Assembly (NCBI GenBank): GCA_027080995.1
Contig: JALWNT010000060.1
Coordinates: forward strand, 1-46,774
Length of the DNA: 46,774 nt
Source of the DNA: Campylobacteraceae bacterium
Lineage (GTDB): Bacteria > Campylobacterota > Campylobacteria > Campylobacterales > Sulfurovaceae
Direction: 5' to 3'
Part shown: piece after piece, positions 2,247 through 22,270 of the stretch
How the letters are laid out: every line of letters begins with the position of its first letter
How positions within the stretch are numbered: the stretch's first letter is position 1
The notes under the pieces: generated by a model
Databases searched by the model: none
Told to the model about the DNA's origin: nothing
Seen by the model: the letters and a program-made list of their open reading frames with translations, nothing else
Program-made: the position numbers and the translations under genes

Positions 2247-2590
2247 GAATGAGGAATGAGGAATGAAGAGTGAGGAACCGAAATATAGGAACTAGTAACG
2301 AGTAACTAGTAACTAGAAACCGATCCCGTAGCATGGGATTGCTATCCCACGAATTGATGGAGGATTGAGAATTGAGAATTGAGAATTTCGTGGCGTTACT
2401 TTGCAACTCGGTTTTATGGAGGCGGGGCTTCAGTCCCGCAATGCAGGGCTGAAGCCCTGCCCCCAATGACCAATGACCAATGACCAATGACTGCGCTGCA
2501 GGCGCACACAATGTCCAATGCCCAATGCCAATCCGCGAAGAGAATCTCACTGCCTTTTTCGGTTCCTCATTCCTCATTTCTCATTCCTCG
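2247..2590. repeat. Second large cluster of 7-bp tandem arrays
   Basis: The 356-bp gap between the 88-aa gene and the NosL-like gene is almost entirely repeat. GAATGAG-type units lie at 2247-2274, ACTAGTA-type at 2291-2318, TTGAGAA three times at 2365-2385, CCAATGA four times at 2463-2490, CCAATGC-type at 2514-2527 and TTCCTCA-type at 2563-2590. The last array contains the stop codon of the NosL-like gene (2581-2583), so its final Glu-Glu-stop is written in repeat units. I see no gene here; a 118-codon open frame across it is repeat-derived. Confidence 0.85.
2418..2464. repeat. GC-rich palindromic repeat (copy 1)
   Basis: A block of two adjacent hairpins starts GGAGGCGGGGCTTCAG and ends GAAGCCCTGCCCCC. 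A close relative lies at 44205-44253 near the other end of the window. The element is intergenic and resembles REP-type dispersed palindromes. Confidence 0.7.
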
Positions 2591-4343: not shown

Positions 4344-6353
4344 ATGAAAAAAACAGTGTTACTCTCCGTCGCAGCCGCTGCGACACTCTGGGCCGCCCCC
4401 TCCGAGGATCTGGGAGCGATCGACGTCAACGCCACCGCGTTCGAAACCACCGTGGTGGAGGATGTAGCCGGCGAAGAGATCCGCTCGGCCGACGTCGCCG
4501 ACGCACTGGCACAGAAAGTCCCCGGTGTCACCCTGGTGCGCCGCAGCGCCATCGCCAACGATATCATCGTCCGGGGACTCAAAAAAGACAATCTCTCCGT
4601 CACCATCGACGGAGCCCAGATCTACGGCGCCTGCCCCAACCGGATGGATCCGCCCATCTCCCACATTCTGGCCAACAACATCGACAACATCGAAGTGACC
4701 GAAGGCCCCTTCGACGTCACGGAGCCCGGCGCCCTGGGCGCTTCGATCAAAATCAACACTCTCAAACCCGCCAAAGAGTTCGCCGGAGACATCAATCTGG
4801 GGCTGGGCTCCTGGAAATACAGCAAACTCTCGACCAACCTCAGCGGCGGGACCGATACCTTTCGCTTTATGCTGAGTCTCTCCACCGAAACCAGCGATCA
4901 GTACAAAGACGGCAACGGCGACACCTTCGCCGAGCAGCAGGATCGCTACATCCGTGAGCATCCCTCCGCCGCCGGAATGGGGTATCTCCCCCAATACCGG
5001 GATCTGAAAGCCTATACCAAATCGACGATGATGGGCAAAATCTTTTGGGATGTCACCGACGATCAAACCCTCCAGATGAGCTACACCGCCAACCGCAGCA
5101 ACAACATCCTCTACCCCAATACACCGATGGATGCCGACTACGACAACTCCGACCTCTTCGATACCAAATACATCTTCCGCAATCTCGGAGCATACTCCGA
5201 CAAGCTGACCCTCCACTACTATCGGACCAAAGTCGACCACCCGATGTCCAACCGATATCGCAAATCCAGCCTGATGAAAGGGGTGATCAAGCACTGGTTG
5301 AGCACACAGGTCGACGGAGCCGCTCTTGTCAACGAGTATCGGATCGGGGAACACAACCTCGAAAGCGGCCTGGAGTTCAGCCGACGCAACTGGGACGGGA
5401 AATATTACAAGAACGACAATCCCTTTCCGGCTGCTTTGTTTCACAGTATCTACGATGTCGATACCGACGACTACGGCGCCTATACCAAAGACCGCTTTGC
5501 AACGGGCAGTGTGGATTGGAATCTGGGCATACGCCTGGATCACTACAAGATCGACACTCCCCGACCCGGCGATAGGGATCGCACTTTCGACGGCATAAGC
5601 GGCAATCTGCTGGCCTCTTACCGACTGAACGAAGCGTGGACACTCTTCCTGGGAACGGGAAGCTCTATGCGGGTCCCCGATCCCAAAGAACTCTACTACC
5701 GAAACAAAACGGGAGTGATGGTCGGTAACGACAATCTCGATGCGGTACGCAACTACGAAATCGACACCGGAGCCGAATGGAATGTCGACGATCTCAGCCT
5801 CCGCCTCAAAGGTTTCTACAATTATCTCAGCAACGACATTCTCTACAATGCCACAGCCCAGAAATATGAAAACGACGACGCTTACATTTATGGAGTCGAA
5901 CTCACCGGCAGCTACACCTACAGCGATACGCTCTATTTCGACGGCAGCTTCACCTGGTTGCGGGGCAAAAAGAGAGATCCTCTCAGCGGCCAGAGCGATA
6001 CCGACTTGCCCGATATCTCCCCGATGAAAGTCACCCTCGCCGCCAACTGGTCCCCCTGGGAGGATACGATGCTGCGTGCCGAATTTATGGCTTCCGGGCG
6101 CTGGAAGCACATCGATAGCGACAACGGCGAGCAGGTCATCGCCGGCTGGGGTATCGTCAATCTCAAAGCCCAAAAGAGCTGGGGAGAGCATCTGGAGCTG
6201 ACGGTCGGTATCGACAACCTCTTCGACAAAACCTACGCCGTCTCCAATACCTACAAGGATCTCACTCTCATCTCCGGCGGCACCGACGCTCCGACGATGC
6301 TTCTCAACGAACCCGGACGCTACGTTTACGCCAACATCCGTTACAAATTCTGA
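4344..6353 (+). CDS. nosA: TonB-dependent outer-membrane receptor, NosA/OprC-like (copper)
   Basis: This 669-aa protein has a signal peptide (about 1-17), a TonB-box-like segment (EDLGAIDVNA), a plug domain with VRGLKKDNLSVTIDGAQ, and a 22-strand-type barrel ending in the aromatic signature RYVYANIRYKF. The plug contains YGACPNRMDPP, a motif I know from the OprC/NosA family of copper receptors. NosA is required for copper supply to nitrous oxide reductase in Pseudomonas stutzeri, and a nos cluster lies 16 kb away here, so copper import is the best inference. Energy would come from TonB-ExbBD (18380-20155). A Shine-Dalgarno AAAGGAG precedes the ATG. A stem at the stop codon may end transcription. 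Confidence 0.85.
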   Translation: MKKTVLLSVAAAATLWAAPSEDLGAIDVNATAFETTVVEDVAGEEIRSADVADALAQKVPGVTLVRRSAIANDIIVRGLKKDNLSVTIDGAQIYGACPNRMDPPISHILANNIDNIEVTEGPFDVTEPGALGASIKINTLKPAKEFAGDINLGLGSWKYSKLSTNLSGGTDTFRFMLSLSTETSDQYKDGNGDTFAEQQDRYIREHPSAAGMGYLPQYRDLKAYTKSTMMGKIFWDVTDDQTLQMSYTANRSNNILYPNTPMDADYDNSDLFDTKYIFRNLGAYSDKLTLHYYRTKVDHPMSNRYRKSSLMKGVIKHWLSTQVDGAALVNEYRIGEHNLESGLEFSRRNWDGKYYKNDNPFPAALFHSIYDVDTDDYGAYTKDRFATGSVDWNLGIRLDHYKIDTPRPGDRDRTFDGISGNLLASYRLNEAWTLFLGTGSSMRVPDPKELYYRNKTGVMVGNDNLDAVRNYEIDTGAEWNVDDLSLRLKGFYNYLSNDILYNATAQKYENDDAYIYGVELTGSYTYSDTLYFDGSFTWLRGKKRDPLSGQSDTDLPDISPMKVTLAANWSPWEDTMLRAEFMASGRWKHIDSDNGEQVIAGWGIVNLKAQKSWGEHLELTVGIDNLFDKTYAVSNTYKDLTLISGGTDAPTMLLNEPGRYVYANIRYKF

Positions 6354-6682: not shown

Positions 6683-8821
6683 ATGAGAAATAGGATTTTT
6701 TTGAGTGCGGTGCTTGCCTGTTCTCTGGTAGCAGCGGAAGAGATGGAGCTGGGAACCATCTATGTCGAATCGTCCACAATCGAAGGGATCGCACCTGACG
6801 CCAGAACGGAAGCATCGACCGTCAACGATATCAACGAAACAACGATCGAACAGATCGACCCTAAAAATATCAACGACATACTGCAGACCATTCCCGGAGT
6901 CACGGCGGATGTACGAAGCGACTCGGTGGAGATCCATATCCGTGGGGTCAACCAGCAGGAGTTTATGTGGGAGGACACCGGGGTTGCGGTGGTCATAGAC
7001 GGAGTACCGGTGATGCAAGATGGAGGGAAAGTGCGCGGGATCAACGTCGACGAGATCGAATCGATCAAAGTGATCAAGGGAAGCGCCGCCTATCTCTACG
7101 GGGCCGACGCCTCTGCGGGAGCCATCATCATCACGACCAAGAAACCCAAAGCCGGAAGCGGAATCGATCTGGGTGCGGAAGCCGGAAGCTACGGCTTCCA
7201 GGACTATCGAGCCAGAGCCTACAAAACGACCGACCGCTACGCCTTCAACATTTTTGCGAATTACAAAAAAGAGGATGGATACTGGTATCAGACCTCCAAC
7301 TACATGAAGACGGGAAATGGAAAGTTCACCTATTACATCGACGAGAGTAGCGATCTGACCCTCAACGTCGCCGTCACCAAAGGGTACGAAGAGACAACAA
7401 GAGGCGGAGTAACCGGAATCACGGAGGCCCGGAAAAATCCCAAGGGGAACGACGAGGATCTGCCCTGGGGGAAAGATTACTACTCCGACATCTACCGATA
7501 CTCCCTCACCTACAACAAGGATTTCAGCGATACGGCGAATCTGCAGGTGATCGGATACTACTACAAGGACCTCTACAACTACAAATCCTCACCTCAGGAT
7601 ACGAATGGTGACGATATAGAAGACACCTATACAAGGGATAATGACGACGACATCAAACAATACGGGATCAAATCGGAGTTCCGGGATAGTATCGGGGATT
7701 TCGCCTATATGCTGGGCCTCGATATCGGAAAAAGAGAGTATGACGAATACCGGGAAACGATCGCTCAGTACTCAAGTTATAACTGGTGGACACATTCTTA
7801 TGAAACATATTATGTTGGAGAAAGCAGTCTGGATCAATCAACGGAAGAAATCTACGCCGTTTACGGGGAAGGAAAATACCAGGTGACCGATCGATTCACC
7901 GCTGTTTTGAACCTTCGCTACGACTACAACAAATATTCGATAGATGTATTGAATCATGAGTACGATGATACAAACGATCAATGGATCGATACGCGAACAA
8001 CGGGAAGCGAAGATTTCAGGAATCTTACCTATCGTGTCGGTGCGACCTACGAACTGAGCGAAGACCATATTCTCTACGGCAACGTCGCCACCGGATTCCG
8101 AAACCCATCCGTGACCCAAAAGGCCGACAATCCGGACCTGGACAAAGAGACTTATATCACCTATGAAATCGGTTTGAGAGGGAATATGGCGTACGGCCTA
8201 CGTTATCAGGCGAGCGCATTTATCACCGATACAAAAGACATAATTTCGAAAGCAGACGGTACCTACAACTGGGACAGTGACAATTTTGCCAATGTGGGAG
8301 ACGCCCGAAACCAGGGGATCGAACTGAGCCTGAAGAGCGATCAGAGCAAACAGCTCTCCTTCAGCCTCGCGTATACCTATCTCAACGCATACTATACCTC
8401 GCATGATCCCTTCTACATCCAGGGGATCACCGATGCAAACGGCGATCCGTTGAGTTTTGATGTGACCGGCAACAAGCTGCCGAGGGTCCCTCATCATAAG
8501 GTCGATTTGATCGTCAACTACCAATTCCTTCCCAAGTGGAACCTGATGACGGAACTCTACGCCCAGAGTCGATACTACGCGGACGAAACAAATTTTGTGA
8601 GCATGCCGGGGTATGGGAAAGTGAATCTACGGCTTGATTATAAGCTCAACAAGAACTTAAACTTCTATATGAAGCTGGACAATGTCCTGGACAAGCAATA
8701 TTTCCGAACGGTCTATCTCTTCAGGGACAGAAACCACGACGGCAAGCTGGATGCGGAAGACGCCACCATCACCGTAGATCCCGGCCGGGTCTTCTATGCG
8801 GGGATCCGCTACAAATTCTAA
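6683..8821 (+). CDS. TonB-dependent outer-membrane receptor (substrate unknown)
   Basis: This 712-aa receptor has a signal peptide (MRNRIFLSAVLACSLVAA), a TonB-box-like ELGTIYVES, a plug (about 45-165; GVTADVRSDSVEIHIRGV, YLYGADASAGAIIITT) and a barrel ending RVFYAGIRYKF. Two acidic loops are notable: DTNGDDIED in mid-barrel and DRNHDGKLDAED near the C-terminus, the latter with EF-hand/dockerin-like spacing that may bind calcium. I chose ATG 6683 because GGAGGAGAAAG precedes it; an upstream in-frame ATG has no such site. It lacks the NosA-type CPNRMDPP motif, so it probably takes up something different, perhaps a metal chelate. It is the first gene of the operon, only 3 bp before the next. 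Confidence 0.85.
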   Translation: MRNRIFLSAVLACSLVAAEEMELGTIYVESSTIEGIAPDARTEASTVNDINETTIEQIDPKNINDILQTIPGVTADVRSDSVEIHIRGVNQQEFMWEDTGVAVVIDGVPVMQDGGKVRGINVDEIESIKVIKGSAAYLYGADASAGAIIITTKKPKAGSGIDLGAEAGSYGFQDYRARAYKTTDRYAFNIFANYKKEDGYWYQTSNYMKTGNGKFTYYIDESSDLTLNVAVTKGYEETTRGGVTGITEARKNPKGNDEDLPWGKDYYSDIYRYSLTYNKDFSDTANLQVIGYYYKDLYNYKSSPQDTNGDDIEDTYTRDNDDDIKQYGIKSEFRDSIGDFAYMLGLDIGKREYDEYRETIAQYSSYNWWTHSYETYYVGESSLDQSTEEIYAVYGEGKYQVTDRFTAVLNLRYDYNKYSIDVLNHEYDDTNDQWIDTRTTGSEDFRNLTYRVGATYELSEDHILYGNVATGFRNPSVTQKADNPDLDKETYITYEIGLRGNMAYGLRYQASAFITDTKDIISKADGTYNWDSDNFANVGDARNQGIELSLKSDQSKQLSFSLAYTYLNAYYTSHDPFYIQGITDANGDPLSFDVTGNKLPRVPHHKVDLIVNYQFLPKWNLMTELYAQSRYYADETNFVSMPGYGKVNLRLDYKLNKNLNFYMKLDNVLDKQYFRTVYLFRDRNHDGKLDAEDATITVDPGRVFYAGIRYKF

Positions 8822-8824
8822 GCC

Positions 8825-9478
8825 ATGGAGCTCAGCGGCTATCTGTCGATCTACATCATCGGCCTCTCCTACGGTGCGACGGCCTGTATGCTCTCTTGCA
8901 TGCCGTTTCTGGCACCGCTGCTCTTCAGCGGCTCCAACAGCACCAAAGAGGCGATGGGGGTCATTCTCCCCTTCAGTTTCGGAAGGATCTTCAGCTATAC
9001 CCTGCTCTCGATCCTGGCCTTCATGAGCTCCTATTGGCTAAAAAGAGTCCTGGATGACCGTGTGATCTCCAGTGCTCTACTCGGCTCGGTGACCGTGCTC
9101 ATGGGGATCTATATCCTCTACCAAAGTTTCGGGGAGAAACGTAGCTGTGACAGCGTAAGAAGCGCGGGCGGTGGGCAGAATCATCTGGGCCTCTTCACGA
9201 TGGGGGCAAGCATGTCTTTGAATCCATGTACGCCGGTATTGGCTCTTCTTGGATTTTCGATCAACGCCGGCGCGTTGAGCGTGGCTTTTTTCGAAGGAAT
9301 CTTTTTCGGCCTGGGTGCCGTGACCTTTTCGATTCTCTTCTACGGTTTCGTCTTTTCGAAACTGGTACGGGGACTTGTGGCGCAGTTTCAGCCCTACAAG
9401 ATCTGGATCGAACGGGGAAGCGCCCTCTTTCTCTTGGTACTGGGCGTAGCGGTTTTCAACAATCAGCTGAAGCTGTAA
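8825..9478 (+). CDS. CcdA/DsbD- or TauE/UreH2-like six-helix membrane protein
   Basis: This 217-aa integral membrane protein has about six helices in two similar halves. Each half begins with a Cys/Pro motif: CMLSCMPFLAPLL (C21, C25) and SLNPCTPVLALLGF (C134). This is the pattern of DsbD/CcdA-type proteins that carry thiol electrons from cytoplasmic thioredoxin to the periplasm, and of related TauE/SafE (UreH2) families often annotated as metal or sulfite exporters. C108 lies in the central loop. Thiol transfer could keep the NosL cysteines of the next gene product reduced; that is inference. Spacing is 3 bp to the receptor and 12 bp to the fusion gene, so it sits inside the operon. Confidence 0.75.
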   Translation: MELSGYLSIYIIGLSYGATACMLSCMPFLAPLLFSGSNSTKEAMGVILPFSFGRIFSYTLLSILAFMSSYWLKRVLDDRVISSALLGSVTVLMGIYILYQSFGEKRSCDSVRSAGGGQNHLGLFTMGASMSLNPCTPVLALLGFSINAGALSVAFFEGIFFGLGAVTFSILFYGFVFSKLVRGLVAQFQPYKIWIERGSALFLLVLGVAVFNNQLKL

Positions 9479-9490
9479 AAGGAGTGTGGG

Positions 9491-12193
9491 GTGGTCGACT
9501 TTATACGTAGGGACAAAAACGATATCTATTCCAAAAAGATACTCGGCTTTCTGTTCAAAAATCAAAAGTTTCTGTTTATATTCCGGGTGATCGTAGCCGG
9601 GCTCTTCTTTTATGCGATCTTTCTGGGATTCTATGAACCTTCCAAAGAAAACACCTTCACCACGGCGCTCTTCTGGTCCATTTTCTGGCCACTTTTTATG
9701 GTGGTGACTCTCCCGACCTTCGGAAGGATCTTCTGCGGGATCTGCCCCCACGGGTTTCTCGGGAAATATATCACCCGGATCGGTCTCAAAAAGAAAATGC
9801 CCAAATGGATGCAAAACCGCAATATCGGGATCCTGCTGCTGGTGATCGGATGGTGGGGTGTCTACTACGTCTTCCCGGGAATCTACCGAACTCCCCTGGG
9901 AACGGCGCTTCTCTTTACCGTGATGACCCTGTTGGCCTTCGGGCTCTATTTTCTCTACCGGGATATGAGCTACTGCAAATATATCTGCCCCATCGGCACA
10001 CTTACCCGCGCCTATGCCAAGCTCTCCTTTACCTGGCTGGGTACCTACCAAAGTGCCTGCAGCGAGTGTCGGACCTTCGAATGTGCCACCGCCTGTCCCT
10101 ACAATCTCAAACCCTTCACCTTCGACAAACGCAACTCCATGACCGATTGCACCTTGTGCATGGAGTGCAGCCACGCCTGTGAAGCGATCAGCTTCAAAAT
10201 CAAAAAACCCTCCTTTTCTCTCTTTTCCCGTTTTCAGATCGAAAAGGCGGAGGTATGGGCCTATCTCCTGATTCTTGCTTCGATCCCCATCGCCATGGCC
10301 TTTCATCACGGCATCGGCCGAAGCAACGCGGCGGGGGAGATGATCTGGTCGAAAACCGCCGGGATCTTCCAGTCCCTCTTTGGACCGGGGGGCGATTGGG
10401 TAGGGCTCTTCGCCTTCCTCTACGCGATGCTTTTTACGATCCTGGCGGGAACGATCGGCATGTACCTGGCGTCAAAAATCCTCAAAAGACCGTTCAAGGA
10501 GGTCTTTTACTCCCTGGGATACTCTTACGCGCCGCTCTTTATCCTCTCCTCTCTCGGGCACGCTCTGAGCAGCTTCTTTACCGGAGGATACGAAAGGATC
10601 GTCGAAGGCTTCGCCTGGGCCTTCGGTTTCAGCGTCAATGTGGAACCTCTGGCCAGAAGGGGCGACGATTGGCTGATGATCTTTTCCGCCTTCAAGTGGA
10701 TCGGCATCGCATGGGCACTGCTGCTGCTTTACAAGCGCATGAAGCTCATCAAAGCGGAAAAGCTGCGCAAAATCCTGGCCTTCCCGTTCGCCGCATCCTT
10801 GATCATCTTCTTTTTGGGGGTGAATATGTACCGAAATCACATCATCGATACCTACGGAAGAGCCTCCGGCGGCCACGGGCATATGCACCGAAGCGGCAAA
10901 ATGTTCCAAACAGTCCCTCCCAAGAAGGCGACGATCCTCCAAACCGGCCCGAGGAGAGAGTCCTGTGCCGTCTGCGGGATGAAACTTGCGATGTTCTACA
11001 AAACCAACCACGCGGCCGAATCCGACGGCAAGGTTCGCCAATACTGTTCCCTCCACTGCCTGGCCGCGGACAAGACGATCAACAAACGGAGCCTCTCCGA
11101 ATTGAAGGTGGTCGATACCGCCTCCTTGAAATTCATCAATGCCGACCAAGCCTTCTATGTCGTCGGCAGCAGAAAAAAGGGGACGATGAGCCGGGTCAGC
11201 AAATATGCCTTCGCCAAGCGGGAGGATGCAGAGCGCTTCCGCCGGCAATTCGGGGGGAAGATCGTAGACTTCGACACCGCCCTGAAAATCGCCGAAAGAG
11301 ACTTCGAAAAGAACTCCTTCGTAGCGAAACCGGAGGATACACTCTTTTTCACGACCCGAAATCCCGCCGCTAAGACACGGGGCGGTATGGGGATGCGACA
11401 CGGCGGCATGCACCGCAGCGGCCGGCAAAATGCGGTACCCTCCGCATCACTCTGGCTGGCGGGCAAAAGCCCGGCAAGGCCCAAATGCGTCCGAAACGTA
11501 GAGGGGGTCTTCTATCTGCTGAATGCCGACGGCAGGAGAGGCAAACCGCGAATCAGCAAAAAGAACGGCTGCACGAAAGTGAGTTTCGCCGTACCCAAAA
11601 GCGGATATTATCCTCTCTATTACGTACGTTCCAACCAAGGGCTCGTCAATATCGCCAAATATGAGTACAAAAGAATCGATCACAGCGGAGAGGAGGTTTT
11701 CACCAAAGCGGTCGTCGCTCCCAAAACCCTCAAAGAGATCCCCATCGACCTCCAGCGCCTTAAAGATCACGAAGACTCCTTCTACTCCCGACTCCACAGC
11801 GGAGAGAAGGTCCGATTCAGAGTCTTGAAAGACGGCAGGCCGTTGGAGAAGGCGAGAGTCACCCTCCAAACCCAATTCGGCTGGCAGAAAACGGTCCGGA
11901 CCGACAAAAACGGCATCGCAGAATTCCAACTGATCAACGACTACGATCCGGAGTGGAAAAAATTCAACAAACGATTTCGGGAAAAGTACCTTGTGGTCGC
12001 CACCTACGACAAGGGAACTCAGAGGTACAAGATCAGCTACAGCGGATTTTATCTCCCCGCTCGGGAACGTTATCAATCCTACGCATACGCGCTTCTGATC
12101 TTTTTGGGTCTGTCGGTCGTCATCGGCGTGGGAGTCTTCGCATACCGGTACCGGGTGCAGAAACCTTTTCGGGAGGTGAGCTTCGATGAATAA
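9491..12193 (+). CDS. Membrane polyferredoxin (NosR/NapH-like) fused to NosL and DUF4198-like domains
   Basis: This 900-aa protein combines three modules. Residues 1-450 are a polytopic ferredoxin protein with CGICP (82-86), CKYICP (162-167), a CSEC...CATACP group (190-203) and a ferredoxin CTLCMECSHAC motif (220-230), then five or six more helices. Residues 455-615 are a NosL domain bounded by Met/His-rich segments (GHGHMHRSGKM before, GGMGMRHGGMH after), with C492-x2-C495 and C519-x3-C523. Residues 650-855 are a periplasmic beta domain whose LHSGEKVRFRVLKDGRPL part resembles DUF4198 (metal-transport-associated). A last helix (865-887) anchors the C-terminus. It lacks the FMN-binding domain of true NosR. 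The start is GTG at 9491 with GGAG upstream. Likely role: coupling membrane electron flow to periplasmic metal handling. Confidence 0.8.
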   Translation: MVDFIRRDKNDIYSKKILGFLFKNQKFLFIFRVIVAGLFFYAIFLGFYEPSKENTFTTALFWSIFWPLFMVVTLPTFGRIFCGICPHGFLGKYITRIGLKKKMPKWMQNRNIGILLLVIGWWGVYYVFPGIYRTPLGTALLFTVMTLLAFGLYFLYRDMSYCKYICPIGTLTRAYAKLSFTWLGTYQSACSECRTFECATACPYNLKPFTFDKRNSMTDCTLCMECSHACEAISFKIKKPSFSLFSRFQIEKAEVWAYLLILASIPIAMAFHHGIGRSNAAGEMIWSKTAGIFQSLFGPGGDWVGLFAFLYAMLFTILAGTIGMYLASKILKRPFKEVFYSLGYSYAPLFILSSLGHALSSFFTGGYERIVEGFAWAFGFSVNVEPLARRGDDWLMIFSAFKWIGIAWALLLLYKRMKLIKAEKLRKILAFPFAASLIIFFLGVNMYRNHIIDTYGRASGGHGHMHRSGKMFQTVPPKKATILQTGPRRESCAVCGMKLAMFYKTNHAAESDGKVRQYCSLHCLAADKTINKRSLSELKVVDTASLKFINADQAFYVVGSRKKGTMSRVSKYAFAKREDAERFRRQFGGKIVDFDTALKIAERDFEKNSFVAKPEDTLFFTTRNPAAKTRGGMGMRHGGMHRSGRQNAVPSASLWLAGKSPARPKCVRNVEGVFYLLNADGRRGKPRISKKNGCTKVSFAVPKSGYYPLYYVRSNQGLVNIAKYEYKRIDHSGEEVFTKAVVAPKTLKEIPIDLQRLKDHEDSFYSRLHSGEKVRFRVLKDGRPLEKARVTLQTQFGWQKTVRTDKNGIAEFQLINDYDPEWKKFNKRFREKYLVVATYDKGTQRYKISYSGFYLPARERYQSYAYALLIFLGLSVVIGVGVFAYRYRVQKPFREVSFDE

Positions 12194-13175
12194 GATCCGA
12201 GACGCCATCAACCGTATCGATCTGAGGAAATTCCGCTTCTGGATTCAGCTCTTTTTTTTCGTACTCTTCGTCTACGGCGCTTATTTTTCCATCGACCTGG
12301 GGAGGGAACTTCCGATCTTCTCCTGCGGATACAACCGGGAAACCGGCGGCACCTGCTATTTCCTGGCGCTTCAGCATCAGTTGGCCCGCCCGTGGGACCG
12401 TCTCTTCAGCACCGCGAGTATCGGAGTCTTGACCGGGTTCCTGACCTTCCTGGCCTGGTTCATCATTTTCAATAAGGCTTGGTGCGGCTACGCATGTCCT
12501 CTGGGAACCCTGCAGGATTGGATCACGAGTTTCAGAAAAATGCTCAAGATCCCCTACGGCACCTATTCCCAGTCCCAGTACAAGGTCCTGAAAAAGATCA
12601 AATATATCTTTCTCTTCATCGTCATCGTCTTTCCCCTGCTTCTGGGGATCGGACTCCTTGACGGCGAGTGGAGAGGAGCCTTTTGCAAAATGTGTCCGGG
12701 GCGATTGATCACTCCGCTCTTTAGCGGAGATGTTTCCCAGTGGACGATCGACTTTTCCACCAATACCGCCATCTTTCTGACTACTTTCGGATTGGGATTT
12801 ACGGTCCTTTTCTTCGTGGGATCCTTCATCAAAAAACGATTCTTCTGCTTCTTCTGCCCCATGAGCGCCATGCATTACATCTTCAGCGACTGGGCCCTGT
12901 TTAAATTGCGAAAAGATGGAGAGAAGTGTACGAAGTGCGGGGATTGCTACAACGTATGCGATATGCAGATCAAGGATATCGCCGACGATGTCACGAGCAA
13001 AAACATCCTTCGGGACGATTGCATCTTCTGCATGAAATGTGTCGCCGCCTGTCCCGAGGAGGATGCGCTTCATGTGGACATACTGAACATGAAAGTCTTC
13101 ACCTCCACCAAGGGCGGATTCGCCAAACGGATGGAGATCGACAGTTTCAAAAAAGAAGAGAGCGATGAAAAATAG
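12186..13175 (+). CDS. NapH-like membrane ferredoxin
   Basis: This 329-aa inner-membrane protein has about five helices, the paired CGYACPLGTLQDW and CFFCPMSAMHY motifs of the NapH/NosR/RdxA polyferredoxin family, and two C-terminal [4Fe-4S] motifs (CTKCGDCYNVC and CIFCMKCVAACP). An extra CKMCPG motif lies between. Such proteins pass electrons between the quinone pool and cytoplasmic or periplasmic redox partners. The gene overlaps the fusion gene by 8 bp and the HgdB-like gene by 11 bp. I infer that it supplies low-potential electrons to the activator/double-cubane pair that follows, which would be an unusual partner for this family. Confidence 0.83.
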   Translation: MNKIRDAINRIDLRKFRFWIQLFFFVLFVYGAYFSIDLGRELPIFSCGYNRETGGTCYFLALQHQLARPWDRLFSTASIGVLTGFLTFLAWFIIFNKAWCGYACPLGTLQDWITSFRKMLKIPYGTYSQSQYKVLKKIKYIFLFIVIVFPLLLGIGLLDGEWRGAFCKMCPGRLITPLFSGDVSQWTIDFSTNTAIFLTTFGLGFTVLFFVGSFIKKRFFCFFCPMSAMHYIFSDWALFKLRKDGEKCTKCGDCYNVCDMQIKDIADDVTSKNILRDDCIFCMKCVAACPEEDALHVDILNMKVFTSTKGGFAKRMEIDSFKKEESDEK

Positions 13176-14445
13176 ACGAAAGATCGAAACGCAGGAAGAG
13201 AGACAAAACCGCCACAAAGCCATGGAGAGCGTGGCGATCCTGGACAAACTCAAAAACGACTTCTCCAAGCCCCTGGAGGCAATGGACTACTTCTACGATC
13301 TCTTCGAACGGGTCTACTGCAAGCGGGAGTCCCTCCACGAGCGAAGCGTCAAGGTAGGAACCCTCTGCATCCAGGTCCCCTACGAGATCATCTACGCTCT
13401 GGACGCCGTTCCGGTTCGTCTGTGCAACGGATTCCACACCGATGACGAGATCGGAAGCGATTTCGCCCCGTCAAAAGCCTGCCCCCTCGTCAAGGCCACC
13501 GTGGGTCAGTTCAGCTCCGGCAATTTCGTCGACCGGCCGGACCTGGTGGTCTCTCCCACCACCTGCGATCAAAAATCCAAGGCGGGCGCGATCATCGAAA
13601 GCATGGGATATCCGATCTACGATATGGAGTTTCCACGCACGAAAGAGAGCGAAGAGAGTCGGGAGTACTGGCGCAGAAGTGTCAGGAAATTCGCCAAAGA
13701 TCTCTCCAAAGAGCTGGGGGTGAAGCTGACCCGGAACAAACTGAAAAAGACAATCCAGCGGATCGGGTACGCCCAATACCTCTATCACCGCCTGAACACT
13801 TTGCGAAAGAGCGACAACCCTCCCATACTCGGGGTGGATATGTTTCTGGTGACGAATGCATTTTTCTTCGACCGGCTGGAGAGCTGGATCGAAGCGGTAG
13901 AGAGACTCGTGGAGGAGTGTGCCGCCAAAACCGAAGAGGAGAGTGCAACGTACCAAAACAGCCCGAGAATCGTCTATACAGGTTCGCCTCCCATCTTTCC
14001 GAACTTGAAAATCCCTCTACTCATCGAGCAGTCGGACGGCTTGATCGTGGCGGACGAAACCTGCTCCTCCAACCGGATGTTCAACGACATGATCAGTGTC
14101 GACGAGTGGTTTCTCTACGATATGGTCGATTCGATCTCGGACAAATACCTCAAAGGGTGCACCTGTCCGATCTTCACCAAAAACAGTGATCGGATCCGAA
14201 GGATCATCAATCTTGTAAAAGAGTATCATGCCGAAGGAGTCGTCTATCAGGCCTTTGCGGGATGTCAGGTTTATGAGATGGAGCAACGAAGCGTTCTTGG
14301 CGCGATGGAAAAAGAGGGAATCCCCATCCTCTATCTGGAAAGCGATTACAGCCCAAGCCACTTGGGACAACTGACCACGAGAATCGAAGCGTTCATCGAA
14401 TCTCTGAAAAACCGAAGGAGAAAGAAAGCATGCGCTATTTCGTAG
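13165..14445 (+). CDS. HgdB-family / double-cubane-cluster-like protein
   Basis: This 426-aa soluble protein belongs to the 2-hydroxyacyl-CoA dehydratase component (HgdB/BadD/BcrB) superfamily: KVGTLCIQVPYEIIYALDAVPVRL near the N-terminus, ACPLVK, SPTTCDQK, ADETCSSNR, GCTCPIF and FAGCQ. Six cysteines (106, 134, 300, 332, 334, 367) sit in conserved-looking positions. Six Cys is the number needed for an [Fe8S9] double cubane, as in the double-cubane cluster protein of Carboxydothermus, which reduces small molecules at ATP cost. No second HgdA-type subunit, CoA-transferase or acyl-CoA gene is nearby, so a fermentative dehydratase role is unlikely. It overlaps its activator gene by 16 bp. The true substrate is unknown. 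Confidence 0.8.
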   Translation: MKNRRKIETQEERQNRHKAMESVAILDKLKNDFSKPLEAMDYFYDLFERVYCKRESLHERSVKVGTLCIQVPYEIIYALDAVPVRLCNGFHTDDEIGSDFAPSKACPLVKATVGQFSSGNFVDRPDLVVSPTTCDQKSKAGAIIESMGYPIYDMEFPRTKESEESREYWRRSVRKFAKDLSKELGVKLTRNKLKKTIQRIGYAQYLYHRLNTLRKSDNPPILGVDMFLVTNAFFFDRLESWIEAVERLVEECAAKTEEESATYQNSPRIVYTGSPPIFPNLKIPLLIEQSDGLIVADETCSSNRMFNDMISVDEWFLYDMVDSISDKYLKGCTCPIFTKNSDRIRRIINLVKEYHAEGVVYQAFAGCQVYEMEQRSVLGAMEKEGIPILYLESDYSPSHLGQLTTRIEAFIESLKNRRRKKACAIS

Positions 14446-15236
14446 GAATAGATATCGGATCGACCGCGATCAAGATCGCGATCATCGACGAAAACGACGA
14501 CCTGGTCGGATACAAAATCAGTGCCAGCGGCAGTATGTTCTACAAATACGCCAAGGAGACGCTGGCCGATCTGTTGCGATCATTGGACTTGACGGAGAAG
14601 CAGATCGTCTATACCGTGGCCACGGGATACGGTCGGAAGCTCTTCAAGGAGGCCAACGAAAAGATCAGCGAAATCACCGCCAACGCCATCGGCGCGAGAG
14701 CGGCGGCCAAGGGTGAGTGCGAGATCCGGACCATCATCAATATCGGAGGGCAGGACTCCAAAGCCATCTCCATCGACAACGAGGGGAATGTGGTCAATTT
14801 CGCCATGAATGATCGATGTGCGGCCGGGACCGGAAAATTTCTGGATGTGGTGGCGATGAACCTTGAGATCGGTGTCGATGAGCTGGGCAAGTATCACTTC
14901 ATGTCCCAAGGAACTCCTCTGTCGATCAACAGTACCTGCGCGGTCTTCGCCGAATCGGAGATCATCGGTTTGCTAGGAAACAATCACTCCATCGAAGATA
15001 TCGTGGCCGGAGTCCATTACTCCATTGCGAAACGGATCATCAAACTGGTCAAACGCGTCGGCATCAAAGACGCTATCTATTTCGATGGGGGACCCGCACT
15101 CAACGAAGGATTGGTCAACGCAATCGAGAATGAACTCTCCAAAGAGATCTACATCCCCAAACACCCCCAGATCACCACCGCCTTCGGTGCGGCCATTCTG
15201 GCAAGGGAATCCTATGGGTATCTACAAAACTCCTGA
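14430..15236 (+). CDS. ATP-dependent activator / reductase (HgdC/BcrA/BadF family)
   Basis: This 268-aa ASKHA-fold ATPase has GIDIGSTAIK (phosphate-1), NIGGQDSKAI, NDRCAAGTGKF with C130, INSTCAVFAESE with C170, and FDGGPALNEGL. In HgdC the two equivalent cysteines of each monomer hold one [4Fe-4S] cluster across the homodimer, and ATP hydrolysis lowers the potential for electron transfer to the partner. It should drive the HgdB-like protein encoded just upstream. The ATG at 14430 is preceded by AAGGAG 9 nt away. Length and motif order are normal for the family, so this is a working enzyme by sequence. Confidence 0.9.
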   Translation: MRYFVGIDIGSTAIKIAIIDENDDLVGYKISASGSMFYKYAKETLADLLRSLDLTEKQIVYTVATGYGRKLFKEANEKISEITANAIGARAAAKGECEIRTIINIGGQDSKAISIDNEGNVVNFAMNDRCAAGTGKFLDVVAMNLEIGVDELGKYHFMSQGTPLSINSTCAVFAESEIIGLLGNNHSIEDIVAGVHYSIAKRIIKLVKRVGIKDAIYFDGGPALNEGLVNAIENELSKEIYIPKHPQITTAFGAAILARESYGYLQNS

Positions 15237-15253
15237 GAGACGGCGCACCCTTC

Positions 15254-18200
15254 ATGTTTGACAGACTGCTGAAGTTTTTCATTGAAAACTACAAGCTCAA
15301 CTACATTCTATTTTTCCTGATCTTCGGAATCGGAATCTACAGTTACCTCCTCCTTCCCAAAGAGATCTCTCCTGTGGTCGAACCCGATTCGATCACCGTC
15401 CGGGGCAGCTACAGCGGAGCCTCCCTCGATACACTGAACAAAATCGCCGTCGAAGAGATCGAAGCGGAGATAAAGAACATCGACGGAGTCGACAATATCT
15501 CCTCCCGCATCGTTCCCGGCCGCTTCACGATCACACTGGAGTTGAAAAAGGGGGCCGACAAAGCGCGAGTCCAGAAAGAGGTGGAGGATGCTATCAAGCT
15601 CATCCGATCCAACCTGCCGAGCGACATGGATGAACCGACCACCAGCAGCGTCGCACACACCCGGGGGTTGATGCAAGTCTCCATATTCAGCAAAACTCTC
15701 GACAGAGACAGGCTTATCGAGAAAGCCAAAGAGTTGAGGCTGCGTCTCCTGCGCCTGAAAGATATCGCCAAAGTGACCATCTTCGGCGACGCCGATGTCT
15801 ACTATGAGATACTGATCGACGACAAAAAAGCCGAAGCTTACGGCTTGACACAAAAACAGATCGTGGACGCGATCTCCGATGTCTCCTACATCTTTCCTCT
15901 CGGAAAACTCCAAAACAATAAACAGGAACTCTATATCTCCCTGGAAAACCGACAATTGGATGTCGACGGTTTGAAGAACACCCTGTTGGATATCGACGGA
16001 AAAGTCGTGCCGCTCAAAGATGTAGCCAGAGTAACGAAACGATACAGCGACTCCTCTACCCTGGCCAGCATGAACGGGAAAAACGCGATCACACTCTCTA
16101 TTTCGCAAAATCCGCTGGGCAACGCCATCGAAATCTCCCAAGAGGTCAGGAAGCTTATCCGTAGCCTCCGAAACGACGAGGTCAAGTACGAAATCCGCCA
16201 CGACAATTCCACCGTGATCAAGGAGCGACTCGACATCGTCATTTCAAATATTTTGATGGGGATCATACTGATCACGGTCATGACCGCCGTTTTGATCAAT
16301 CTGAGGATGGCGATCGTGATCGCCCTGGGGATTCCCACCTCTTTCGTAATCGCTGCGATCTACTTTTATCTCAGCGGATACAGCATCAATATCAATTCCC
16401 TTATCGGTGTATTGATCGCTATCGGGATCATCGTCGACGATGCCATCGTCATCAGTGAAAACATTCAACAATACATCGAAAAAGGATATCCCCCGAAAGA
16501 GGCCGCCTATCTGGGAACGAAAGAGATGGCCAAACCGGTGGTGATCGCCTCCTTGACAACCATCTTCGCGTTTATCCCTCTTTTGATGCTCACCGGCAGG
16601 CTCGGACAGATCCTGGAGCTGATCCCCATCGCCATCAGCGCATTGGTGATCGCCTCCTTGATCGAATCTTTTCTCTTTCTGCCGATCCACTCTACCCACA
16701 TTCTGGACAAGCGATCGCGCACTCGTTCCTGGAAAGGTGCCGGAGCGATCTACTCAGGAATGCTCGCGGTGGTCATCAACCACCGACGGATCTTTACCGC
16801 GCTCTTTCTACTTGGAACAGTGCTTTTAATCCTTCTGGGGGTCAAAGGATCGCGATTCAAAATGTTCGAACCCTTCGACTCCACCTCCATCAGCATCACC
16901 TTCAAAGCGTCAAAAGAGACAACGCTTCAAGACTCTCTGAAAATTGTACAGGCAATCGAAAAAGATCTTCTGAGACATAAAAAGGAGTTTTTTATCGATT
17001 ACGTCAGCTCTACGGCGGGCTACCGAAGAGGTGAAGCCGGCGGAGCGGAGCTCTATCCCTACGTGGGATACATTACTCTCTATTTGAAAAAGAAGGCGCC
17101 GGAGAATTTTCTGGAGAAGTACATCACCCCCTATCTAAGCTTCTATTATGACCCGACGGACCGAGTCCGCACGGAAAGTTCCCGGCAGATTTCGAAGCGA
17201 CTCCGGAAATTCATCAGGAAAGAGAAGTATAAAGAAAAGTTCCATTTGCGGCAGATCAATGTCCTTGAACGAAGAATCGGTCATACCCCTACGGATATCA
17301 TGATCGGGGTGGTGGGTTCGAACCACAACCGAGTCATCTCCGCCATCCGGATGTTGGAACGCGAACTGAAAGCTCAACAAGCGGTAAAATTCGTCAGCGA
17401 CAATATGAAATTCGGCTCCAGTGAAATCAAACTGAGCCTCAACTCCTACGGCAAAAAGCTCGGGGTGACGCAGCGATACATCGGAGAGTACATCGCCGAT
17501 CTCTACCTGGAAAAGAAAAAGGGAATTATTGCCGATCATAAGGGAGTGTTGGATATCAAAGTCTCCACTGCCTACAAAAACGATATCCAATACCTGAAAT
17601 CCTTGAAGATCCCGTTGAGAAACGGCCAAACCGTCGCTCTGAAAGAGATCTGTGATTTCAAGATCACCCGATCCCTGGAGAAACTGACGAAATACGACGG
17701 ATACGTCACCTTCTATGTCTACGCGAACATCGATCAGGATATCAATACCACGGACGAGGTGCTCTCCAGTCTCCTTCCGACCCTCGAAAAGATACGGAAG
17801 GAGGGATTGAAGTATCGGCTCAGAGGCGAATACCGCCAGAAGAGAATCTTACAAAAAGATATGCTCAAAGCCGTGATTGTCGCCATAGTCCTCATTTTTC
17901 TCTCCATCCTCTATCTCTTCAACTCCATCAAAGACACTCTCATCGTCATGAGTGTCATCCCGCTCTCGTTCCTGGGAGTGCTGATCGGACACAGGGTGAT
18001 GAGCTTTGACCTCTCCATCCCCTCCATCGTCGGGGCACTCGGTCTGGCCGGGGTCATCGTCAACGACGGAATTCTGATGTTGGCGGTCATCAAAACCGCA
18101 CAGGAGCGGGGAGAGATGATCGCTCTGGCGGCACGACGATTCCGGCCCATCATCTTGACGACGGTGACGACGGTGATCGGTCTCTCCTCTTTGATCTTCT

Positions 18201-18328
18201 TCGCGACGGGGCAGGCTGTGACCTTCCAACCCCTGGCGATCTCCCTGGGCTTCGGCCTGATCTGGGGAACGGTCTTAAATCTCTTTTATCTACCGGCGAT
18301 CTATGATGTTTTGCATCGATACGATTAG
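15254..18328 (+). CDS. RND-family efflux permease
   Basis: This 1024-aa inner-membrane transporter has the duplicated RND layout: one helix, a large periplasmic loop, six helices, then the same again. The proton-relay aspartates are present in TM4 (IGIIVDDAIVISENI). The matching second-half motif is GVIVNDGILMLAVI. It is the last gene of the operon, 17 bp after the activator gene. No membrane-fusion protein or outer-membrane channel is encoded in the window, so it either borrows partners or works alone. Substrate class (metal, organic, or reaction product of the upstream enzymes) is not readable. Two hairpins follow its stop. Confidence 0.88.
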   Translation: MFDRLLKFFIENYKLNYILFFLIFGIGIYSYLLLPKEISPVVEPDSITVRGSYSGASLDTLNKIAVEEIEAEIKNIDGVDNISSRIVPGRFTITLELKKGADKARVQKEVEDAIKLIRSNLPSDMDEPTTSSVAHTRGLMQVSIFSKTLDRDRLIEKAKELRLRLLRLKDIAKVTIFGDADVYYEILIDDKKAEAYGLTQKQIVDAISDVSYIFPLGKLQNNKQELYISLENRQLDVDGLKNTLLDIDGKVVPLKDVARVTKRYSDSSTLASMNGKNAITLSISQNPLGNAIEISQEVRKLIRSLRNDEVKYEIRHDNSTVIKERLDIVISNILMGIILITVMTAVLINLRMAIVIALGIPTSFVIAAIYFYLSGYSININSLIGVLIAIGIIVDDAIVISENIQQYIEKGYPPKEAAYLGTKEMAKPVVIASLTTIFAFIPLLMLTGRLGQILELIPIAISALVIASLIESFLFLPIHSTHILDKRSRTRSWKGAGAIYSGMLAVVINHRRIFTALFLLGTVLLILLGVKGSRFKMFEPFDSTSISITFKASKETTLQDSLKIVQAIEKDLLRHKKEFFIDYVSSTAGYRRGEAGGAELYPYVGYITLYLKKKAPENFLEKYITPYLSFYYDPTDRVRTESSRQISKRLRKFIRKEKYKEKFHLRQINVLERRIGHTPTDIMIGVVGSNHNRVISAIRMLERELKAQQAVKFVSDNMKFGSSEIKLSLNSYGKKLGVTQRYIGEYIADLYLEKKKGIIADHKGVLDIKVSTAYKNDIQYLKSLKIPLRNGQTVALKEICDFKITRSLEKLTKYDGYVTFYVYANIDQDINTTDEVLSSLLPTLEKIRKEGLKYRLRGEYRQKRILQKDMLKAVIVAIVLIFLSILYLFNSIKDTLIVMSVIPLSFLGVLIGHRVMSFDLSIPSIVGALGLAGVIVNDGILMLAVIKTAQERGEMIALAARRFRPIILTTVTTVIGLSSLIFFATGQAVTFQPLAISLGFGLIWGTVLNLFYLPAIYDVLHRYD

Positions 18329-18379: not shown

Positions 18380-19354
18380 TCAGTGTATGCGATACTGAAG
18401 CGTTACGGAGAGTCTGCGGGGAAGAGAGACGTTGATACCGGAGACGTTTACGGGAAAGGCCTGTTGGACGGCACGCCTGGCCGAGGCGGTAAAGGCTCGG
18501 GGACCCCGGACGCTGATGGAGGCCACACGACCGCTGGGTAGCACAGTGAAACTGACCCGTACCATCCCCTGCAGACGCCGTCGTCTTGCAGCGGGAGGAT
18601 AGCGTTTGTGTCGGGCGATACGCCGTTTGATGCTCGCTAGGAATCGGTTGGCGCTCAGGCTCCCTCCCCTGCGGGCTCGGGAACGAACCGAATCTTTCGA
18701 CGCACGCCTGTTCTTTCGAGTCTTGTGCTTTGGCCGGCTTTTATGCTTTTTTAGCGCTTTATGGACCTTGCTTTTTTTGCGGACCTTCTTTTCCGGTTCT
18801 TTCGGATCGAAGAGCGCCAGCTCCCGATCGTTCAATGGGCGTTTGAGGGATTTGTAGAGTTCCGGATCGCAGGGGGTCACAGGCTCCATCGGCGGCCGCT
18901 CCACAGGCTTCGCCGGGGTTACAACACTGTGAGCGGCCGGCCGGTCGATCGCCACGGCTTCCGGAGTTTTGGGTGCCTCCGGGGCCGGAGCGGGCTGCTC
19001 TCGAACCTCTTTGGGCGGAGGCGGAGGCTCCTCCGGCGGCGCGGGTTCGATCTCTGCAGGCTCTTCTTTGGGGGGTGTCGTCTCCTCGGGTGTCTCTTCG
19101 GGGGTCGGTTCCTCCTGTTCCGGCGGAGTGATCTCTTTGGGGGCTTCCTCTTCCGCCTCGGCGGCTTTGGACGCTTCGGAGTTGACCGTCTGTTTCGCAT
19201 TCTCCCAGGTTTCACTGGCGCGGACAAGGGTCACGGTCGTGCAATGGGCCTCTTCCGATATCCGGGTCCAGCGGTGCAAAAAGATCCAAGCAGAGCCCGC
19301 CAGTAGCAGATAAACGCTCAAAGCGTAAAGAAGCGCATGGAAACGGAGATTCAT
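18380..19354 (-). CDS. tonB: TonB energy-transducing protein
   Basis: This 324-aa protein has one N-terminal membrane helix (about residues 7-27), a long Pro/Glu-rich periplasmic spacer (about 75-160), then an unusually basic Lys/Arg-rich stretch (about 188-245). It ends in a C-terminal TonB domain with RYPPAARRRRLQGMVRVSFTVLPSG. It transmits proton-motive force from ExbBD to outer-membrane receptors, here most obviously those at 4344 and 6683. It overlaps exbD by 4 bp. The basic block after the acidic Pro/Glu spacer is a strong charge asymmetry that may contact the peptidoglycan; that is speculative. Confidence 0.9.
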   Translation of the reverse strand: MNLRFHALLYALSVYLLLAGSAWIFLHRWTRISEEAHCTTVTLVRASETWENAKQTVNSEASKAAEAEEEAPKEITPPEQEEPTPEETPEETTPPKEEPAEIEPAPPEEPPPPPKEVREQPAPAPEAPKTPEAVAIDRPAAHSVVTPAKPVERPPMEPVTPCDPELYKSLKRPLNDRELALFDPKEPEKKVRKKSKVHKALKKHKSRPKHKTRKNRRASKDSVRSRARRGGSLSANRFLASIKRRIARHKRYPPAARRRRLQGMVRVSFTVLPSGRVASISVRGPRAFTASARRAVQQAFPVNVSGINVSLPRRLSVTLQYRIH

Positions 19355-19728
19355 CGCAGTGTGACGATATTGATCGTTTCAAACCCCAGACCTTTGAGCC
19401 GGTCCAGCACCTCGACAAATCGCTCGTATCTCGCCTGCTTGTCCCCGGAGAGGAAGACAGGACTTTTGGGATTTTTCCCCTGTAAGAAGGAGGCGATTCC
19501 CTCCGCATCGGTTGGATGCCCGTCGACATAGATCTTCCCGTCGGCGGCGATCGATATGCGGATCGCTTCTTCCCGAGGGAAGTTTTGGGCGCTTTTGCCC
19601 GAGGGGAGCTCCAAGGGGATCACTCCCTTGGCGATGAAGGTCGCCGTAGTCAATACGATGACGAGCAGTACAAGCATAATGTCGATCATCGGCACGACGT
19701 TGATGGAGTCGAACTTTTTAATCTGCAT
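19351..19728 (-). CDS. exbD: ExbD/TolR-family biopolymer transport protein
   Basis: This 125-aa protein has a single N-terminal helix with VVPMIDIMLVLLVIVL, including the conserved membrane aspartate of the ExbD/TolR proton channel, followed by a periplasmic domain of about 90 residues (ISIAADGKIYVDG). It forms the energising complex with ExbB and TonB. It overlaps exbB by 11 bp and tonB by 4 bp. Confidence 0.93.
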   Translation of the reverse strand: MQIKKFDSINVVPMIDIMLVLLVIVLTTATFIAKGVIPLELPSGKSAQNFPREEAIRISIAADGKIYVDGHPTDAEGIASFLQGKNPKSPVFLSGDKQARYERFVEVLDRLKGLGFETINIVTLR

Positions 19729-20155
19729 CTTTTTGGAGAATCTCCCAGCGGTTGAGCAGCACTTCGATCTTACGGCTGACGTGGTTGTAAAAGAGCATCG
19801 CAGGAATCGCCACCACGAGACCCAACGCCGTCGCCTTGAGCGCCAGGGCCAAAGAACTCATAATCGACCCCGCGTCCATCTGCCGGGTCTGACCCAGGAG
19901 ATAGAAAGTAATGATGATTCCCAACACCGTCCCCAAGAGCCCCACATAGGGAGCGTTGGAGCCGACGGAAGAGATCAGATTGATGTTGTCGGTCAAATCG
20001 ATCTCCAACTCTTCGCGGTGACGGTAGCGGCTCAGATCAATCTTCCGATAAAAGAGCAGACGCTCGAAATAGGCCCACAGCGCAATAAATCCCATCAGGG
20101 CCAACACGCCCAACACTCCCCAGTCAACAAGCTCTTTGAGCCAATGAACGTTCAC
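19718..20155 (-). CDS. exbB: ExbB/TolQ-family proton channel protein
   Basis: This 145-aa protein has three helices and the MotA/TolQ/ExbB signature SNAPYVGLLGTVLGIIITF followed by ALALKATALGLVVAIPAMLFYN. It is the short ExbB form common in Campylobacterota. The start is GTG at 20155 with AAAGGAAA upstream. It follows the response-regulator gene by 55 bp and is probably co-transcribed with it. Confidence 0.93.
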   Translation of the reverse strand: MNVHWLKELVDWGVLGVLALMGFIALWAYFERLLFYRKIDLSRYRHREELEIDLTDNINLISSVGSNAPYVGLLGTVLGIIITFYLLGQTRQMDAGSIMSSLALALKATALGLVVAIPAMLFYNHVSRKIEVLLNRWEILQKDAD

Positions 20156-22220: not shown

Positions 22221-22270
22221 TTTCCTCACTCCCTTTTCATCTTCAATTTTCCAAACCGGGGACTCCCCGC

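Follow-up and report, generated by a model that had tools for sequence, protein, structure and literature searches.

What is served by an operon that joins a TonB-dependent outer-membrane receptor (TBDT) to membrane ferredoxins and to an ATP-driven enzyme pair of the double-cubane type? The question is raised by a 46,774-nucleotide stretch of DNA from a Campylobacteraceae bacterium (contig JALWNT010000060.1, our C60, from an assembly of 1.97 Mb with a rated completeness of 99.95%; called the window below), in which seven open reading frames (ORFs), designated A to G, follow each other on the forward strand. Our answer, put forward tentatively and rated slightly short of an even chance, is that the nitrogenase-like, ATP-driven double-cubane pair (E and F) would export low-potential electrons through a 16-cysteine membrane ferredoxin (D) and strip in this way the chelates imported by the TBDT, one branch of the family obtaining copper for N2O reductase.

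All seven ORFs were confirmed in the ORF list, and their broad families and tight spacing are as the initial annotation had described them. A (6683-8821, 712 amino acids (aa), or 722 aa from a start at 6653) carries the Pfam Plug and TonB barrel domains; B (8825-9478, 217 aa) is a CcdA/DsbD_2-type membrane protein (PF13386, 54.9 bits, above the cut-off); C (9491-12193) is a fusion of NapH-like, NosL and DUF4198-fold parts. They are followed by D (12186-13175), a polyferredoxin with four predicted transmembrane (TM) helices and Fer4_5 and Fer4 matches, by E (13165-14445, 426 aa), an HGD-D protein of putative double-cubane type, by F (14430-15236, 268 aa), a BadF/HgdC-type ATPase activator (BcrAD_BadFG, 184.1 bits), and by G (15254-18328, 1024 aa), an optional RND permease (ACR_tran, 466.7 bits). 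The distances along the run are +3, +12, -8, -11, -16 and +17 bp, a spacing from which alone co-transcription of the seven genes is suggested.

A genome collection was scanned by using six E orthologues and two peptide patterns as queries; the scan, which was not exhaustive, identified 67 loci related to the E locus. The carriers are mostly Campylobacterota (labelled Sulfurimonas, Sulfurovum, Sulfuricurvum, Arcobacteraceae, Sulfurospirillum and Hydrogenimonas), and further ones are found among Bacteroidota (Lutibacter, Flavobacteriaceae, Bacteroidales), in one Calditrichota and under three gammaproteobacterial labels, the record titles indicating metagenome-assembled genomes (MAGs) in all but one case. 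A contig labelled Petrimonas (L048) may be a misbinned campylobacterotal one, since its E is 69% identical to that of the window. Gene content was counted in the 40 loci, termed flanked, with at least 6.5 kb before and at least 1.5 kb after E; 27 of the 67 were dropped, L060 and L085 because no E ORF was picked in them by the script and the other 25 for short flanks (distance to the contig end). D and the DUF4198-like domain occur in all 40 flanked loci, the TBDT in 38 and F in 37, and the constant presence of the first two beside E makes the association more than chance. The accessory genes are less frequent: CcdA is found near 30 of these loci, TonB 15, ExbB 14, ExbD 13, RND 12 and NosL 9. 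Counts for D were rechecked under a stricter rule (a D of more than 300 aa immediately upstream of E), and those for the N-terminal part of C ("CN") were discarded, because that model cross-matches D. By the stricter rule, D directly precedes E in 57 of the 67 loci, including all the flanked ones; seven of the eight other loci with an E ORF end no more than 0.8 kb from E at a contig end, and the eighth is L069. With mechanically assigned starts, D and E are adjacent in 60 loci, overlapping in 54, and E and F are adjacent in 57, at most 13 bp apart. The gene set is a conserved system and spans several bacterial phyla. The initial annotation had presented it as a unit; the order does recur in other genomes and is not peculiar to this one.

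Within a class sample of 397 genomes, 68 have an HGD-D match at 1e-30. E orthologues account for 27 of them, at 1e-169 or better and with 59-80% identity to the window's E (itself excepted); the next best match is at 1e-62, with at most 33% identity. The distribution is patchy, as among 12 other genomes of the genus searched an E match was found in just one (G005), and a 98% identical E is present in a MAG labelled Nitratifractor sp. (L019). The gene set is rare in Bacteroidia (2 of 395 genomes, one being the centre of the sample); in G610, the second carrier, the gene order is TBDT, DUF4198-like domain, D, E, F.

The nature of E was evaluated against family models. It reaches 308.7 bits for PF06050 (HGD-D; cut-off 28.4), which places it in this fold family, and 336.9 bits for the double-cubane model NF040772, whose equivalog cut-off is 350; it is therefore filed as a divergent sister type and not as a member. 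Scores against dehydratase and benzoyl-CoA reductase models are 78.1 bits for bzdN (cut-off 453.8), 67.5 for HadC (700) and 45.6 for bcrC (421.15). The window's assembly contains a single PF06050 match, in contrast to the two subunits of dehydratases, and this one gene lies beside its activator, F overlapping E. A CoA dehydratase or class I benzoyl-CoA reductase was rejected on these grounds, one HGD-D gene and low family scores; the initial annotation had likewise preferred a double-cubane type, and the distant partner subunit that would have spoken for a dehydratase is absent from the genome. For BzdN, a passage of PMC11971306 gives C36, C73, C100, C263, C293 and C327 as ligands of the [8Fe-9S] cluster. 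C68, C106, C134, C300, C334 and C367 of E align with them; C134 is one column off C100 of BzdN, yet in register with two chains of double-cubane cluster proteins (DCCPs). Neither these six cysteines nor C87 are missing from any of the 85 alignment rows (75 distinct, since rows of this and the following alignments include repeated loci), so that E, judged by its sequence, belongs to a divergent double-cubane type whose six cluster ligands are complete. F scores 230.2 bits against TIGR00241 (cut-off 125.4) and its C130 and C170, next to the sequences AAGTG and AVFAE, are invariant in all 82 rows (73 distinct); we take these two to be the ligands of the activator's bridging cluster.

The Carboxydothermus DCCP and its activator (PDB 6eno and 7yyl; NF040772) likewise consist of a one-subunit HGD-D protein beside a BadF/HgdC-type ATPase, with cluster-ligand cysteines that align with those of E. 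They differ in that E is at most 33% identical to the canonical type of the same class, across the gap in score given above, and that its operon is tied to a TBDT and a membrane polyferredoxin. Canonical double-cubane-type gene pairs are also found in other Campylobacterota (L016, 9039-11038; L017, 8311-10222), and BLAST searches detected no TBDT or D homologue in 20 kb around them. Second copies of E without an adjoining activator were observed in L124 (G285), L128 (G318) and L047, the last from the same MAG (BM502) as L027, whose E does adjoin one; G285 and G318 each hold one E copy with F and one without, and it is possible that the activator is shared between the copies of such genomes.

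D is predicted, from hydropathy, charge and a structural model, to have four TM helices and both ends in the cytoplasm. Its 16 cysteines are invariant in 82 rows (72 distinct) and in a second set of 48 rows. On the cytoplasmic side are a CX3CP motif (100, 104), a CX2CP motif (221, 224) and two [4Fe-4S] motifs (248-258 and 279-289), whereas C47, C57, C167 and C170 fall in two predicted periplasmic loops; neither the window's NosH nor the N-terminal part of C has equivalents of these four. The membrane ferredoxins NapH, NosH and CcoG share with D the four TM helices, the CX3CP and CX2CP motifs and the two cytoplasmic [4Fe-4S] motifs; D differs from them by the four additional invariant cysteines on the predicted periplasmic side, and scores 71.5 bits against the NapH/MauN ferredoxin model TIGR02163, below the cut-off of 213.

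The direction in which electrons move between D and E is best addressed by operons in which a D homologue (D') occurs alone. A D search in 279 genomes of the class gave 17 matches at 1e-20. Fourteen of them have at least 50% identity, all in E carriers; the other three genomes (G095, G016 and G254) have D' only: they gave no E match at 1e-30 among the 397 genomes, and the 14-20 kb surrounding D' contain neither E nor F. The order in G095 and G016 is TBDT, DUF4198-like protein, D', CcdA; in G254 a TonB gene follows D', and CcdA was not detected. Operons of this kind, of three or four genes (TBDT, DUF4198-like, D', in part with CcdA) and without double-cubane genes, lie at L171 8707-13448, L172 6339-10960, L173 ~9944-13947 and L127 15277-20000. 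In L127 and in L042 the run stands beside an E operon and consists of TBDT, a DUF4198-like protein of 272 aa, a D' with 35% identity to D, and CcdA; a TBDT, DUF4198-like, D' run cut by the contig end is found in L077. The 16-cysteine pattern of D is shared by all four D' proteins examined (G391, G095, G016 and G254). The E-less operons may be regarded as an uncharacterised uptake unit in their own right. Receptor, DUF4198-like domain and D look like a working module, to which E and F would be added as an ATP-driven electron source; that the module stands alone is the main reason for taking E and F as the electron source of D, and not D as the donor of E. The initial annotation had the pathway powered by quinol, for which no evidence was found.

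The periplasmic partner in this module is the C-terminal part of C (11399-12193), a DUF4198-fold domain followed by a TM helix. It scores 27.6 bits against PF10670, under the gathering threshold of 34, and relatives with a hit reach at most 32.5; its AlphaFold model (pLDDT 90.7) matches Zcp, a protein solved with zinc, copper or cobalt, at Z 16.4 over 183 residues, and a nickel-bound DUF4198 protein at Z 13.7, the next unrelated match being at 9.7. The modelled domain is clearly of the DUF4198 fold, below the Pfam threshold. The N-terminal part (9491-11398, residues 1-636) combines a NapH/NosH-like polytopic Fe-S half (Fer4_5, 44.8 bits) with a NosL domain (58 bits, about residues 489-595). 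In loci L019-L085 the DUF4198-like part is standalone in 33 cases and fused in 31, and NosL is inserted in 11 of the 31 fused copies. The NapH-like half is absent from Bacteroidota and part of Campylobacterota, where the DUF4198-like protein stands alone. It is the DUF4198-like domain, not NosL or the NapH-like half, that is the conserved part of C; NosL was rejected as a core part, and together with the NapH-like half and the RND pump it is a lineage addition. NosL and the NapH-like half, both named in the initial annotation, are thus not supported as essential parts, and that annotation included neither the DUF4198-fold domain nor the periplasmic cysteines of D, nor the complete nos cluster nearby. 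A "GMH" motif ahead of the domain was dropped, being present in 24 of 90 sequences only. In excerpts of PMC3751524, PMC7190382, PMC11870441 and PMC8238504, DUF4198 genes that respond to iron limitation or are controlled by Fur occur together with TBDTs and with reductases of the PepSY type, and such clusters are tied to periplasmic iron reduction; gene neighbourhoods of DUF4198 are linked with nickel in part of PMC12537917.

Put together, these parts suggest the following steps. A would bring in a metal chelate; in the periplasm, the DUF4198-fold domain with its membrane anchor would hold the chelate or its metal at the inner membrane. F and E would generate, by spending ATP, very low-potential electrons in the cytoplasm; from E these would go to D and cross the membrane by way of its cytoplasmic clusters and its four-cysteine site on the periplasmic side. 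Reduction would free the metal in the periplasm, to be taken over by a copper chaperone (the NosL domain, where present) or a ferrous-iron importer, and the RND pump, where present, may recycle the emptied ligand. The sequences and models show the gene set with its conservation, the families and cysteines of E and F, the invariant cysteines of D, the DUF4198 fold and the operon lacking E and F. We infer the topology of D, the direction of the electrons, the order of the last steps, the contact between D and E, the role of the DUF4198 domain and the metal. That ATP-driven electrons run outward through D and free metal from TonB-imported chelates is, in our estimate, an even chance.

The opposite direction was also considered. 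A transporter encoded elsewhere would take the imported compound through the inner membrane, and E would reduce it in the cytoplasm; D, with C, would take electrons from quinol or from the periplasm to reduce F, and the RND pump would export the product. Double-cubane proteins reduce acetylene, azide or hydrazine, and E retains the full cluster-ligand set of a catalytic protein of this type; D resembles the quinol-side proteins NapH and NosH, at the sub-threshold score given above, and RND genes lie near 12 of the 40 flanked loci. This scheme is the closest to that of the initial annotation, an uptake-reduce-export pathway for a metal chelate, of which uptake and reduction are retained here; export is not a conserved step, because the pump is optional. 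Yet the conserved set includes no inner-membrane importer, the scheme gives no reason for the periplasmic cysteines of D or for a periplasmic domain anchored in the membrane, the operons lacking E and F keep receptor, DUF4198-like domain and D', and quinol is a poor donor at so low a potential. We consider inward transfer unlikely, and still the most probable of the alternatives.

Release of the metal in the periplasm, as outward transfer through D would have it, was compared with the transporter content of the carriers. No match to a FecCD-type permease was found in the window's genome, and in six further carriers (G014, G058, G103, G106, G187 and G361) the matches are of 21.5-39.0 bits only. 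These seven genomes have four to five TBDT matches each and a FeoB of more than 200 bits, a combination that fits release in the periplasm. Ferric catecholates need a potential of about -600 mV. For the related BzdNO, the second and third electrons are placed below -600 mV in a passage of PMC11971306. Precedents of import, reduction and release are described, in the sections concerned, for iron with pyoverdine (PMC6954188) and for copper with Bordetella CrtA/CrpH (PMC13038864).

As to the metal, if this mechanism operates, copper is given about an even chance and iron a distinctly smaller though substantial one, any other metal being improbable. Copper is slightly favoured by the NosL insertions and by the association with NosZ, iron by the relatives of A, the DUF4198 literature and the energetics. 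The association with NosZ begins in the window, where a complete nos cluster (21687-31942, reverse strand; Pfam), a neighbour and not a part of the system, lies 3.4 kb downstream of the operon on the opposite strand. It comprises NosL, NosY, NosL-like, NosF, NosH, NosC2, NosC1, NosG, NosD, NosB and NosZ, where NosC1 and NosB, without Pfam hits, are presumed names based on position and length. In L084, NosG, H, F, L and Y come directly after F, and nos genes lie within the fetched flank in L079 and L082; NosZ is ~18 kb from E in G361, and a second NosZ ~23 kb from an E copy in G285. In the class sample, where species are not independent, NosZ is present in 14 of 27 carriers and in 114 of 370 other genomes (Fisher p 0.03), and two NosZ genes in 5 of 27 and 3 of 370, respectively (p 5e-5). 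NosZ was also found in 11 of 14 carriers reached through loci. Among the carriers labelled Bacteroidota its share is 8 of 11, compared with 129 of 395 genomes in Bacteroidia (binomial p 0.008), a count in which L048 is included as Bacteroidota and G433 (NosY on L082, no NosZ match) and G610 are taken as NosZ-less. On the E tree, NosZ presence changes 5 times, against 10.3 in shuffles; most branches are NosZ-bearing, and one derived campylobacterotal branch is mostly not (9 of 11 rows without). The tree omits the outgroup L108, which has an in-frame stop, and the carriers G024, G033, G610, G433, G435, G436 and G438, among which G433, G435, G438 and G610 have no NosZ match.

Proximity, enrichment and clustering on the tree would also be expected of a pure helper of N2O reductase, supplying copper or low-potential electrons to make or reactivate the copper centres of NosZ. 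Against it, 13 of the 27 class-sample carriers have no NosZ match even at 1e-5, so that NosZ cannot be the sole client, and the strict form of this explanation was lowered accordingly. NosZ and E are moreover often far apart (~50 to 840 kb in complete genomes such as G373, G106, G103 and G187), the TBDT is hard to explain save as copper supply, and a common lifestyle could produce the association. Such a helper role is rated improbable, clearly below inward transfer.

Still less probable, and rated as very doubtful, is a thiol or detoxification function, in which electrons from E and F or from CcdA would keep a periplasmic thiol or metalloid site reduced, TBDT and RND pump moving a toxic compound. 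CcdA, present in 30 of the 40 flanked loci, and the RND pump of some loci fit this explanation; CcdA is missing from Bacteroidota operons such as L073, L075 and L084, and no core part resembles a resistance determinant. G itself scores 217.2 bits against the heavy-metal RND model CusA/CzcA TIGR00914, below the cut-off of 701, and the run holds no adaptor or outer-membrane channel gene for it.

Several observations count against outward electron transfer and metal release, or against copper as the metal. The D model has a pLDDT of 73.3, weakest in the C47/C57 loop, and no solved structure matched it below E 2.6, which is not evidence of a new fold. Parts of the set are missing in places: the 7.2 kb of L069 include E and none of D, the DUF4198-like domain, the TBDT and F, no F was found near E in L047, L049 and L077, and no TBDT in L033 and L045. 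At least one FecCD match of 244 bits or more is present in 13 of the 20 carriers searched, carriers being the only genomes included, and the NosZ-less carriers have been mentioned. Copper in ordinary chelates can be released without so low a potential, and the nearest solved relatives of A, siderophore and metallophore receptors such as 5fp1, CntO and FoxA, would speak against copper. A scan of 73 upstream regions brought out no clear Fur box, the best matches being mostly as common in shuffles (lowest p 0.045, in L084). The excess of His, Met and Cys before the DUF4198-like domain is slight (8.3% vs 6.0%). Canonical DUF4198 members have an N-terminal histidine metal site, according to the portion of PMC12537917 that deals with it; these histidines are not found at the domain start of the C family (16 rows), and metal binding by the domain is therefore unproven.

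Other features of the window and of related loci are as follows. A second TBDT (4344-6353, forward strand), a possible partner and not a core part, lies immediately upstream of A; its best family is TIGR01778 (TonB-copper), at 155.8 bits with a cut-off of 472.45, and relatives above 150 bits were found only in L019, L022/L113 and L058. Convergent genes for TonB, ExbD and ExbB (18380-20155, reverse strand; Pfam) may energise the receptor. Two NosL-like proteins are encoded in the nos cluster, one of which (23095-23667) overlaps the NosF gene. Another two NosL proteins are encoded at 2581-3276 and at 3396-4124; the second of these shares ~45% identity with the NosL domain in gene C of the near relative. 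Five Bacteroidota carriers (L147 in G432, L148 and L149 in G434, and matches in G426, G428 and G437) have two dissimilar NosZ genes in tandem, with ~43% and 52% identity to the window's NosZ; the second type has no equally strong match in 129 NosZ-bearing Bacteroidia (best 5.6e-134, vs 6e-204 or better). In G285, a 427-aa NosB-like/NosC2-like fusion with one CXXCH (L138, 12363-13646) directly precedes the second NosZ gene. Among the neighbours scanned further out in L113, L121, L131 and L136 are housekeeping genes (DNA polymerase III, glycyl-tRNA synthetase, phosphomannomutase) and a MoxR/Bat-like run, which give no clue to the substrate.

Pyoverdine handling and CrtA/CrpH follow a comparable logic by means of different reductases. 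FpvG of the pyoverdine pathway, which we take to be a PepSY-type reductase, is unrelated and lacks an ATP-driven electron source, whereas here an Fe-S protein is combined with E and F. The pathway (FpvA, FpvG, FpvC/F, PvdRT-OpmQ) is similar, in the relevant part of PMC6954188, in TonB import, in an inner-membrane reductase that frees the metal in the periplasm, in periplasmic binding proteins and in ligand recycling by an efflux pump. PepSY-DUF2271-DUF4198-ApbE clusters, for which iron reduction is proposed in an excerpt of PMC8238504, share with it a secreted DUF4198 protein, a transmembrane electron carrier and sometimes a TonB receptor; electron source and carrier are different, and the Pfam matches of the seven operon proteins include no PepSY, DUF2271 or ApbE. 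In Bordetella, the TonB copper importer CrtA is co-operonic with CrpH, a membrane protein of a ferrisiderophore-reductase family; CrpH is PepSY_TM and serves haem-copper oxidases, and the abstract of PMC13038864 names no Fe-S or ATP-driven parts. The individual parts of the present set belong to known families or adjoin them. No open-access PMC paper was found that describes their combination, the 16-cysteine type of D or a double-cubane pair joined to a TonB system.

What double-cubane proteins do in the cell is still called unknown in a passage of a 2025 paper (PMC11971306), and the conserved association with a receptor, a periplasmic domain and a membrane wire opens the question to genetics. 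The gene set suggests a new route to a scarce metal, such as copper or iron, from imported complexes. If our reading is true, this would be the first case in which a double-cubane protein has a physiological task, and the first in which electron export for metal uptake is powered by ATP. Electrons going outward would give anaerobes a way to reduce chelates beyond the reach of ordinary donors, and, in the NosZ-linked branch, would indicate how N2O respirers might obtain their copper, with a bearing on N2O emission.

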